A model generated the notes under the pieces. That model saw only the letters and a program-made list of their open reading frames with translations, was not told where the DNA came from and did not search any database. This document shows, piece by piece, positions 34,084 to 42,197 of a stretch of DNA of 63,394 nucleotides. The stretch is from Circinella minor (Eukaryota; Mucoromycota; Mucoromycetes; Mucorales; Lichtheimiaceae), in NCBI GenBank assembly GCA_016758965.1, contig JAEPRB010000230.1, positions 1 to 63,394 of the forward strand, read 5' to 3'. A program made the translations under genes and the position numbers. How positions within the stretch are numbered: the stretch's first letter is position 1; each line of letters opens with the position of its first letter.

Positions 34084-37000
34084 CTATGAAGTAGTAGAAG
34101 GACAATCATTATTTCCATCAGCAGAAGTAATAGACGCTGATGTGGCATTATGTGCTCCTGTTCCGCTTAAAAGTTGAGAGAAGGTATGGATAGCAGCATC
34201 TAATTCTTCTTTTCGTATAGGTTTACTAATATAGGCATTCATACCTGCATCTAAACATTTTTCACGATCACCAGGCATTACACATGCTGTCATGGCAATA
34301 ATATAAGGTTCGATGTGATTCACTAATTCTTCTCGAATTTTTGTAGCTGCTTCTAAACCATTCATTTCTGGCATCCAAACGTCCATAAAAACTAATTGAA
34401 ACGGATTTTGTGTTGATTGAGCCGTCTTAATTGCTTCAAAAGCTTGACGTCCATTTTCAGCTACTTCTGGTACAATATTGATTTTGGAGAGCATTCGCGA
34501 AACAACTTTACGATTGATTGGATTATCATCTACAAGTAGACTACGAATATGGGCAAACTCATCTGATGATGACGATGACTCAGGTGAATTGACAATGGAA
34601 TGTGTTTGTGAACTTGGAGCAGTAGAAGCATTTGATGCTGCTGCTGCTGCTGATGCTGCTGCTGCTGTTGTTGTTGTTGTTGTTGTTGTTGTTGATGATG
34701 ATGATGCTACTGCTGTTGATGCTGATAAAAACATACTATTATTTTCAGGGGTCGGTAAAGTTATAGTTACGGGCGGGAACGATGTGTTTTTTGTAGTAGC
34801 ATTGGTGATGTTGCGTAATAATTCAATAAATGCTGAATTCTTAAATGGTTTGGTCAAAGAATAACGCTTTAAGGATTCAAAAGGATTAGAACATTCTTCT
34901 AATGGTGTTGTTTCTGGCTGTTGTTGTTGTAATTGTTGTGGCTGCTGATGACCAAATCCACGTCCAGATGGTACCTGAAACCATGATTGTTCCGGCTGTT
35001 CCGCTTGTTTTCCACGTCTAATACGTACATCCTTGATACATATTGTAGGTATTTTTAAAATTAAAGGAAACCATCGTTGTAAAGTACTCAAAGTAATCTC
35101 ACTTGATGTTGTTTGAGGTCCTAATTGTTGAATCACTTGTAAGTCGACATCTACTATTAAAATGGTTGGCGATGGTGGTGACGATTTATCATTGTTGTTC
35201 TTAAAATATTCAATGGCTTCAGTAAAACTAACGATCTTGGCACTTGTTATACCTATACTGGTCAAAATGGCTTCCCATGCCGATCGTAAAAATGAAACTT
35301 CAGCAATGACCATGGGTTTATGATGTGTTAGTTCCTCTAGGTGGAACTGTTCACCAAAAGTAAGCGAGTCAGTTTGAGTTTGTAATACAACTCGAAAATA
35401 AAATGTTGATCCAACATCGGCGACCGATTCTACCCACTACGTATAAGAAAATTTGACAAAAAGCGCTATCAGTTATTTCCCGGGTAATTTTTTATTATAA
35501 GTTTATGATTTGTCAATAGCAATAAAAGCAATGGTAGTGCTTACCATATCTCCCAACATGAGTTGAGAAAGTAATCGGCTGATTGTTAAACCTAACCCTG
35601 TACCACCATAGTTACGGGTTGTAGACGCATCCACTTGAGAAAATGATTGAAAGAGCTTTCCTAATTTATCTTCAGGAATACCAATGCCCGAATCTTGCAC
35701 AGAAAATACATAAGAAACCCATTTCCCATTATTATTATCACCACTATTATTGTCTGCTTTCGGGGGTTCGTGATTTGGGTCAACAGCTACTTTAACACAC
35801 ACAAATCCAGTAGCAGTAAATTTGAATGCGTTGGAAAGTCTATATAATAATAACACGCGCATGAATATCAAATTGTCTACTCCTTTTTTTTTCGCTGAAG
35901 TATGTAAAAACGTACAAGTTTAACAAAATTTGCCGAAGTCTCACCAAATCACCATAAACTTGTGTAGGCAAGTTCTCATCAACATTATACCACAATACAA
36001 CACCTTTTCCAAGAAAATTACTTGCGACTAATTTCATGGCACTTTCAATGACATAGGTCTAATCAGTATTATTGCATTAATGAATGAAAAAAAATAATGA
36101 ATAATTAGATCAGTAAAGCAACACACACACACACACACACAAGTGAAAATAAAATAATTACTAATCAATCCTCTCTTACCATATCCAATAACCCCCTCTC
36201 CAGTGTTAAATGACCTGATTCGATCTTGGAGTAATCAAGAATGTCATCAATAAGTGCCATTAAATGATTTCCGGAAGATTCGATTGTTTCTGCGCAATCA
36301 TATAAATCCGGGGGTAAATCGCTCTCCATAAGCATGCGGGACATGCCGATCACTGCATTCATAGGTGTTCGAATCTCTATAAAAAGAAAGCAAATCATAG
36401 TTATGTAAAGAGTAAAATAAACTATTACTACTCTTGATGTATAATAATAATTCATAACAAAGCATTATCAACACAATAAACAAATATATATGTATAACAA
36501 TAATAGTAATAAAATAACACATGGAATTATATACCATGGGACATGTTAGCGAGAAATTCTTGTTTAGAAGTAGCAGCTTTTTCTGCTACTTCTTTTGCAA
36601 GTTTAAGATCTACATAATATATGATCTCACTTGAGTACTGGTGAACGTTTAACTTTCTCTATCTTTTTCTTTTTCTTTTATTAAAAACCTAAGTAATATT
36701 GATAACGTGATTATAGATACCTTTAAGTAACGTTTGAGTACGAGCCCTTTCTTCTTCTAATTCCAAGGTACGTTGTTGTAAATTTGCTGTTCTCTTACGA
36801 ACCAAATCCTCCATATCATTGGCATATTTTTCCAACTATCAAATAATAATATATATCATTGATCTTTTGATTTTTCATTTTTTTTACAGATTAGAAATAC
36901 AATTACCAAAACTGCCATATTATCCACAACATTATCCGATCCTGTATATGGGTCAAATGCCCCAATGCGACTATCCATTGCTGAAAAGGTTGGTCTTTCA

Positions 37001-40000: not shown

Positions 40001-42197
40001 ACGGCATTGATAACTTTAGGGGTTCATAAAAGGTACCGATGTGAGCTAAGGGAATTTCGCTCATATTAGTAACCGATGCCCCATAATCGAATACAGATGA
40101 ATCGCTCGATTGAAGTATAATGCCGTTCACCCCTTGTTTAGAATAAGCAGCTAATTCGTGTCTTAATTGATGTGGATAACCTATAATAATATTAATATTA
40201 ATAAAGAACAAATAAAATAAATTTTATTGAAAATGTATTTCTTTCATGTCGTTTTTTTCTGTTTTTACATAAAGTCTCCTCCCTTTCCTATCTTATTCTT
40301 TACTCCTTTCCAGTATCATCCCCGAGATAAATATGTCAAACTTTAAATTGTTATGGTATTTGTAAATTACCTAATGGTCCTCTCTATAATTCAATAAAAA
40401 TATTTTACAGTGTTGGCAAATTCTTTTTTTTTAAATATTTCTAAAAAATCAATAATATTTAATCATATTTACAGCAATAGAAAAATTACCTCAACTTCAT
40501 TTGAAATAGTCCAATTAATCTTACGAGCTAAATCTTGAGCACCAGCCATCAAAGCAGCATTATATGTATCACCCCGTGTATTTGGAACAATGGCACCAAC
40601 GGCAGAGTTCTTGTCATTTAGAGGCAATAATGTGGTTTGTTCATTTTCCATTACATCCGCTAAAGTTTTGTTCGTAACAAGATTTGGTCCAGTTTTGATT
40701 GTTTCATTATGAAATACGTCATGTCCTGTTAATATCTGTAAAACATGACGATATGAATCAGCAATCTATATATTTATAAATAGCAGAATATAATAAAAAT
40801 GGAGACAAGAGAAGGAGACATAATACGTGCTCGTAAATACATATAAAACACCGGCAATGCTGTTTGATAATAAGGAAGTTGAGAAATAGCAATGGTATGC
40901 TCATGTCGTGCAAATAAGGCTGTCATATTAGATCCCCCAATATCAAAAAAAGCAGCTGCTACACGTGTCGGGTGAATATTATTGTTAGTTTGTTCTAAAA
41001 TGTCCAAAACTGCTCCGGACACAATATCGACACCGATCTGTACAAAAAAAAATGGTTTTTTTAGTGTAAATAGTAAGAAAAGATAAATAACATCCAGAAT
41101 ACGTATTATTACTTTTACTTTTTCTTATTTTGCGTACTGTTGTATATACACAAAGGTCCTTTCTTTTTTTAATTCTAATATAGCAAGGTATTATATATCT
41201 AGTTATGAATATTTACCGATCCTCCCAAAGATACAATCGAATCAAAAGAATCATTTGATAAGAACGTGTCGCGCACTTTAATTAACGGTTGGGCAGTGTT
41301 ATTATAATCGTGTAAGGGAAGTAACCCAGGTTCAGTGTCGATCGCATCCCGTAACCCTGCAAACCTGTTTTCAAACGTTTGAATATCAATTCCAGCCAAC
41401 TGAATTACCAGTGGTCTAGAAAATCCACGACTCCGTAATTCTTGACCTAACATGGTTGCTGCTTCGTAATCATCTTGTAATATACGTGTTAATCCAAGAC
41501 GTTGGGCATATTGCAACCCTGTATTAAATACAAGTAAGGGTATATTGTTATTTAAAGCATATTGCGCTGCTTCAAATATTTCGTCATTTGGGATAGTAAG
41601 AATAATTCCATCGACTTGCTATATATAAAGAAAACATTATCGATATCGAATATAAAATATAAAATATAAAATATATCATTTTGTTACTATAATGCATAGC
41701 AATACCCATACGTAGCCTAAATAAAGTATAGATTAAAAAAAGAAGTATACGTTATCAACAGCTGTTCGAATATCTGTCGTCATTTTACTTCCTGTATTAA
41801 TCAAATGCCGATTCCATTCAATTTGAATATCCATGATTGCAGCAGCATCTCGGGCTCCTTGTTCAGGGCTATGAAAAAATGTTGCCATTGCTGAATCATG
41901 AGAAATAACTGCTATTCGAGGTTTTGGAGGTGATCCGTTTGACCTACTGCAATTTGGTAAATGAGGAGGTTGAACCTGTTGATCGGCAGCATAATAATTA
42001 TAATTTGAAGTAGTGATATCTGGAGATAACGAATTTCTTGTTGGTGGTGATAACCTTTTTTTCGTTGTTGTTTCTATTGTTACTTTTTCTGTAGCCGACA
42101 CTATGTCGATCCATGATCGTTGTTGTAGTAATATTATAAAGAATGTTATAATTATCCAAAATAAAATTTTCTTTGTTAAATAACAGTAATAGAGCAT
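34084..42197 (-). CDS. Receptor hybrid histidine kinase: tandem PBP ectodomain, TM, guanylyl-cyclase-like pseudokinase, signalling helix, HisKA-HATPase, receiver
   Basis: About 20 exons join in frame to ~1,990 residues. Order: hydrophobic signal/anchor (~10-25); two type-1 periplasmic-binding-like domains (from [11 protein letters not shown] ~100 and from [13 protein letters not shown] ~400 to ~680); a Cys-rich GCC2/GCC3 stalk; TM helix [20 protein letters not shown] (~785); pseudokinase (~975-1270) with VFIKQ Lys, [17 protein letters not shown] in place of HRDL, ITDYGL and LFWLAPE; helix [16 protein letters not shown]; His[16 protein letters not shown] (His ~1331); HATPase with [15 protein letters not shown] and GGTGLGL; degenerate receiver; intact receiver with [15 protein letters not shown] (acceptor Asp) and SKP. 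Linker low-complexity poly-Thr/Ala. The pseudokinase and helix match animal receptor guanylyl cyclases closely, but a phosphorelay output replaces the cyclase. Probably a plasma-membrane sensor of a small sugar-like ligand feeding an HPt/response regulator; ligand unknown. Junctions 39293/39177 and 40852/40765 were checked in frame, arguing for one gene. Confidence 0.85.

Follow-up and report, generated by a model that had tools for sequence, protein, structure and literature searches.

In the group X histidine kinases of fungi, represented by Mak2 and Mak3 of S. pombe, a kinase fold of eukaryotic type precedes the hybrid histidine kinase on the N-terminal side; these proteins are cytosolic and contain a GAF domain. 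In the receptor guanylyl cyclases (rGCs) of animals, the passage of the signal from the pseudokinase to the cyclase is, to our knowledge, unsettled. According to the paper on the signalling helix (S-helix), the fungal S-helix proteins then known were all of the Sln1p type with a HAMP domain, and animal rGCs alone showed a kinase domain ahead of the S-helix (PMC1592074). Here we analyze a gene in a stretch of 63,394 nucleotides from the mucoralean fungus Circinella minor of the family Lichtheimiaceae (contig JAEPRB010000230.1; C230 in our numbering), referred to in full length as the window. The gene encodes a predicted single-pass receptor in which two sugar-binding-like modules likely control a hybrid histidine kinase via an rGC-related pseudokinase and helix.

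The receptor resembles GC-A/NPR1 and GC-C in the sequence of the kinase homology domain (KHD), in the losses at its catalytic site and in the signalling helix directly after the KHD. In contrast to these rGCs, it has no class III cyclase domain, its ectodomain is a tandem of sugar-binding folds and its output is a HisKA-HATPase-receiver arrangement. The N-terminal position of the kinase fold is common to Mak2/Mak3, compared by description, but the window protein is a predicted membrane receptor with an rGC-type KHD. The Sln1-type (group VI) hybrid histidine kinases, also compared by description (PMC1592074), likewise combine a transmembrane sensor, an S-helix and HisKA-HATPase_c-REC. The window receptor differs from them in what lies N-terminal to the helix, namely a periplasmic-binding-protein (PBP) ectodomain and a KHD, and in HAMP, which gave no match between membrane and helix at E 0.001 in the Pfam scan of the window protein.

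The gene lies on the minus strand, as do all features of the receptor given below, with its start codon ATG at 42197 and its stop codon at 34084. A hand-built splice model joins 20 exons into a single open frame of 1986 amino acids. At the C-terminal end, Pfam places HisKA (aa 1314-1379; 36213..36568; 73.7 bits), HATPase_c (aa 1426-1554; 35383..35953) and Response_reg (aa 1836-1952; 34189..34539; 82.8 bits), and the phospho-acceptors are His1324 (36538-36536) and Asp1888 (34383-34381). The phospho-acceptor His, the N-box Asn, the DxGxG and GTGLGL columns and the DD, D and K columns of the receiver are invariant in the 31 rows of alignment A3, which was picked by hand like the 25-row alignment A2. 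Among the 117 fungal homologues described below, the H-box is found in 115, GGTGLGL in 109 and the receiver motif in 104, and the three co-occur in 104; the N-box in a strict form fits 75. Judged by their residues, the histidine kinase and receiver are intact and have the features of a hybrid histidine kinase, and phosphotransfer is a predicted capability of the enzyme. Furthermore, a degenerate receiver fold is predicted between kinase and receiver (about aa 1576-1746; 34807..35319) from the alternating order of strands and helices at residues 666-835 in the model of the homologue P0017. Pfam Response_reg matches only the later stretch. The best Foldseek match of the whole P0017 model is ShkA (6qrj), which has a regulatory pseudo-receiver at the corresponding position. 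Exon-wise profile matches in the 46.6-Mb genome assembly, the receptor gene included, number 2 for HPt, 20 for receivers and 21 for HisKA. Identity as a guanylyl cyclase was considered and rejected because the catalytic domain is absent: the class III cyclase profile PF00211 matches neither the window protein nor, by the Pfam domains listed for them, any of the 117 fungal homologues. Its only exon-wise match in the genome lies in a gene that we read, by eye rather than by Pfam, as an LRR/PP2C-type adenylyl cyclase.

The KHD and helix, used as query, retrieved 122 proteins at E 1e-5 or better. The 120 listed comprise 117 from Mucorales and Mortierellales, two damselfly natriuretic-peptide receptors and one unnamed kinase protein; the 117 were assigned to the two orders by the genus names in their records. 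PBP, kinase, HisKA, HATPase and receiver occur together in 87 of the 117 models, counted twice by eye from the Pfam listing, which lacks two of the 122 proteins, and several of the others are marked as partial. With the ectodomain alone as query, 13 proteins were found, all of which contain the kinase domain while HisKA is listed in 12. Distant members may be missed since the searches rely on shared five-residue words. By sequence, the architecture is thus widespread in Mucorales and Mortierellales and not a one-off. The genome of C. minor contains a second copy (C217:44126-52094) that extends from ectodomain to receiver, is 28-70% identical to the window protein when compared piecewise and covers the full length of the Phascolomyces relative P0010.

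On the extracellular side, a predicted signal peptide (aa 1-34; 42096..42197), a hydrophobic N-terminal stretch whose boundary is a guess, precedes two PBP-like modules at about aa 92-385 (40637..41924, introns included) and 391-686 (39069..40621, introns included). Pfam matches Peripla_BP_4 at aa 95-302 with 39.3 bits (cut-off 35.1). Structure searches with the predicted model of a homologue returned two sugar-binding folds of the CUT2/LacI type in tandem, and both modules show the two-lobed PBP type I fold. ANF_receptor (PF01094) gave no Pfam match in the window protein at E 0.001, whereas the control rGC P0118 matches at E 2e-52. ANF_receptor and CUT2/LacI ectodomains are both PBP type I folds. 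The initial annotation had regarded the entire chassis as that of an rGC; because the ectodomain is of another type than the ANF type of rGCs, the part in common narrows to the KHD and helix. The modules are followed by a cysteine-rich stalk (aa 688-772; 38811..39065) with nine Cys at 691-770, in which the relative P0066 but not the window protein has an Ephrin_rec_like match, and by a single transmembrane helix (about aa 785-807; 38706..38774) predicted from hydropathy and a long helix at 744-792 in the model of P0114. The list of parts drawn up in the initial annotation (PBP-like module, Cys-rich stalk, transmembrane helix, KHD, helix and HisKA-HATPase-receiver) thus holds as far as it goes, but it missed the second PBP-like fold and the predicted degenerate receiver.

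The PBP type I fold of both modules is that of bacterial CUT2/RbsB sugar-binding proteins and likewise of the PBP-coupled histidine kinase XylFII-LytS (5xsj), which is among the structure-search matches. LuxPQ is a further PBP-coupled histidine kinase suitable for comparison. In contrast to these bacterial systems, the fungal modules are in tandem, covalently fused to the receptor and separated from the histidine kinase by a pseudokinase below the membrane. The ligand would be a small molecule, in all likelihood a sugar or polyol. Elsewhere in the genome, ANF_receptor matches are present on C25, C34, C135 and C233 and possibly represent class C G-protein-coupled receptor-like receptors in a mucoralean fungus.

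The KHD (about aa 966-1247; 36949..38127, introns included) corresponds to the Pfam match PK_Tyr_Ser-Thr at aa 971-1240. The signalling helix is assigned to about aa 1256-1313 (36569..36924, introns included) based on its likeness to GC-A, a fixed spacing and the model of P0017. The initial annotation had proposed a helix resembling that of rGCs at this position, and the comparison agrees: positions 6-311 of the 322-position fungal profile align to GC-A in one stretch that ends inside the helix. The helix alone has GC-A as its best match in the PDB, with a weak E of 0.025. Structure prediction, suggested there as a check, points in the same direction since the AlphaFold model of P0017 (monomer, pLDDT about 60-70) contains an unbroken helix that starts where the KHD ends and includes His390 (residues 320-408); it runs straight into the dimerisation helix of the histidine kinase. 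Between a conserved Tyr that follows the KHD and the phospho-acceptor His, 123 of 125 proteins have a spacing of 59 residues; the 125 are those of the 143 KHD-matching sequences that have both helix motifs. One exception, P0112, has 73 residues, exactly two heptads more, by a tandem LQARTAD-like repeat and represents a natural length mutant; the other, P0011, has 76 residues with an insert resembling a retained intron. Motif-to-motif spacings on either side of the helix vary, taking 67 distinct values at n = 117, 52 at n = 118 and 83 at n = 112. The fixed length is what a register-keeping coiled coil would impose. The helix may gate the histidine kinase, in line with its constant length and with work on Sln1p and GC-A: activity or dimerisation is reported to suffer when the S-helix of Sln1p or of rGCs is deleted or mutated (PMC1592074).

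We infer the following mechanism, of which the HPt, receiver and HisKA counts in the genome are the observed part. Outside the cell, the tandem modules would close around a ligand that is probably a sugar or polyol, and the resulting movement would cross the membrane helix. Below the membrane, the pseudokinase would take up the change and relay it to a coiled coil, dimeric and parallel, which might turn and thereby alter the register of the DHp helices, taking the bundle from a kinase to a non-kinase state or back. This would switch autophosphorylation of His1324, from which phosphate could reach Asp1888 in the receiver and then, via an HPt protein, a response regulator. The ligand may turn the kinase either on or off.

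Alternatively, the pseudokinase might be a mere spacer or a scaffold for chaperone binding, with the PBP modules and membrane helix acting on the histidine kinase by helix-to-helix contact. The GC-C pseudokinase is an Hsp90-Cdc37 client according to PMC10400071, where the domain is also thought to serve both scaffolding and physical transduction, so that this source speaks for either function. However, a linker of about 150 residues (aa 808-965 by our boundaries) separates the membrane from the KHD, and a rigid path from membrane to helix must therefore pass the KHD. Moreover, the kinase domain is present in all 13 proteins found with the ectodomain alone, and the distance from the KHD along the helix to the His is kept constant. 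The 117 homologues found with the KHD carry no information on this point because the KHD itself was the query. A spacer or scaffold is unlikely on balance, and transduction through the pseudokinase is preferred.

Could the kinase-like domain also phosphorylate proteins, making the histidine kinase a second output? Its PK_Tyr_Ser-Thr and Pkinase scores exceed the Pfam cut-offs, and single catalytic residues persist. Of 143 sequences matching the KHD, 136 were aligned after dropping matches below 150 aa, and 130 of these are fungal or unnamed metagenomic. Within the 130, Lys or Arg occupies the VAIK position in 122, the alpha-C Glu is kept in 123, the HRD Asp in 50 and the DFG Asp in 25. However, no row has both the HRD Asp and the DFG Asp (0/130, two rows being gapped at the first position), and the HRD Arg is replaced by Gly in 125. 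The domain also groups with the KHDs of rGCs, which appear inactive according to PMC1592074. A receptor with two active kinases is hence quite improbable, and we retain the reading as a pseudokinase.

The pseudokinase is by sequence kin to the KHDs of rGCs, as the initial annotation had stated from a match between the two. The likeness exceeds chance by a wide margin. In a phmmer search of the PDB with the single sequence, GC-A scores 141.6 bits (E 3e-40) and the next family, RIPK2, 74 bits; GC-C reaches 68.8 bits, below RIPK2 and ABL1, and takes second place only with a profile. The fungal KHD and helix profile yields 207 bits for GC-A, 136.5 for GC-C, 99 for RIPK1 and lower scores for others, and the four best-scoring of 1994 distinct PDB sequences are all rGCs, namely GC-C and three constructs of GC-A. 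A Cys at HRD-Asp+6 is found in 128 of the 130 rows and in all three rGC rows but in none of the three other kinases aligned. In a tree of 39 kinase domains, narrowly sampled with 18 hand-picked fungal rows of the 130, 5 rGCs and 16 other kinases, the fungal KHDs (support 99.5/100) and animal rGCs (91.4/96) form sister clades joined with 99.4/100. Grouping with ordinary Ser/Thr or Tyr kinases, which the initial annotation had named as the outcome that would speak against it, did not occur among the kinases sampled. Convergence of two degenerate pseudokinases could mimic shared ancestry given that HRD residues are lost in both groups, which may attract each other in a tree, and that sampling is narrow. 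Nevertheless, the fungal and rGC clade persists with 96.8/99 without the catalytic-loop and DFG columns (fungal KHDs 99.4/100, animal rGCs 89.6/98), the three alternative topologies tried were rejected by the approximately unbiased test (p 0.006, 0.0004 and 0.0002), and the neighbouring helix is alike in sequence as well. Convergence is thus very improbable. As the fungal and animal KHDs are sister clades, the tree does not support the direction implied by the initial annotation's term "re-wired" for the output. Beside the fungal and rGC clade branches P0120, which has a PBP ectodomain, a TKL-like kinase, a further kinase domain and a stretch that we read by eye as cyclase-like. It resembles the window receptor in uniting a PBP-type ectodomain with a TKL-like kinase, but HRD and DFG are present in the first of its two kinase domains and no histidine-kinase Pfam is listed for it.

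The splice model is a prediction guided by homologue models. Exons 1-7 are 42197-41751, 41618-41217, 41037-40831, 40735-40490, 40383-40371, 40180-40003 and 39845-39494; exons 8-14 are 39396-39293, 39177-38284, 38179-38108, 38005-37845, 37775-37677, 37596-37287 and 37204-36907; exons 15-20 are 36835-36721, 36609-36535, 36376-36180, 36058-35916, 35839-35545 and 35436-34084. The 19 introns measure 69-190 nt, 18 with GT-AG and one with GC-AG borders (donor at 40830). Doubtful joins were fixed by P0001 of Phascolomyces articulosus, itself a predicted model, which is 88% identical across the KHD and helix region; it sets the start of exon 7 to 39845 and is consistent with both the GC-AG join and the 13-nt micro-exon 40383-40371. 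The extent 34084..42197 put forward in the initial annotation coincides exactly with the stop and ATG, and all protein motifs cited there (41 letters) are present in the predicted protein. Its claim of a single protein is borne out by the one open frame and by the domain composition of the homologues: that two or more adjoining genes were wrongly joined is scarcely credible, for although the model is drawn from DNA sequence and homologues and some database models are partial (P0017 and P0114), the five domains stand together in those 87 models from other genomes, and the ectodomain missing from the truncated C. minor model P0017 is encoded just upstream at its locus on C217. Of nine tblastn pieces of P0017 on C217, three are 100% identical, and read-through of introns probably accounts for the lower identity of the rest. 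On the opposite strand, exons of a glycosyl hydrolase family 81 protein (endo-1,3-beta-glucanase; 31340-33053, +) converge on the receptor gene. Other open frames in the window encode Myb (42961-43623), FYVE (51488-52255), ankyrin (53609-54181), SURF6 (59402-60094) and alpha/beta-hydrolase (7865-8386) domains.

At least five relatives (P0007, P0011, P0047, P0066 and P0114) are named guanylate cyclase or RGC kinase in GenBank/UniRef with no cyclase domain listed. Names in the records include "RGC/RGC protein kinase", "guanylate cyclase" and "gcy-13", and many other relatives are already called histidine kinase. We infer that the guanylate-cyclase names rest on the KHD. KHD-like domains may also be behind part of the many guanylate cyclase matches counted in Glomeromycotina by a study that states that no fungal guanylate cyclases have been described (PMC8778642). 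A kinome survey of 30 fungal proteomes reports no RGC-group kinases (PMC2838846), and a study of 72 genomes reports no fungal receptor-kinase architecture besides histidine kinases (PMC6733946). The receptor family bears on these statements and on that of the S-helix paper and corrects automatic cyclase names. A literature search found no description of the PBP-KHD-helix-histidine kinase architecture among the papers that it listed. According to PMC5285503, early-diverging fungi have unprecedented, mostly membrane-bound hybrid histidine kinases; because a figure in that paper compiles such proteins, the architecture might already be drawn there.

In the receptor, an output and an input fold that are each known are linked by a transducer assigned in the S-helix paper to animal cyclases alone (PMC1592074). 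One relay would thus serve two enzymes that are unrelated to each other, the first in animals and the second in fungi. Tentatively, and at somewhat less than an even chance, the receptors might form a distinct class of Mucorales and Mortierellales in which the KHD and helix are an old, output-neutral transducer. It would predate the split of animals and fungi, be coupled to a guanylyl cyclase in the one lineage and to a histidine kinase in its counterpart, and act by the same register shift in both. If so, fungal and animal halves would be exchangeable as long as whole heptads are kept. A sister family with another dimeric enzyme serves as a natural control, in which what both families share must be the transducer itself.

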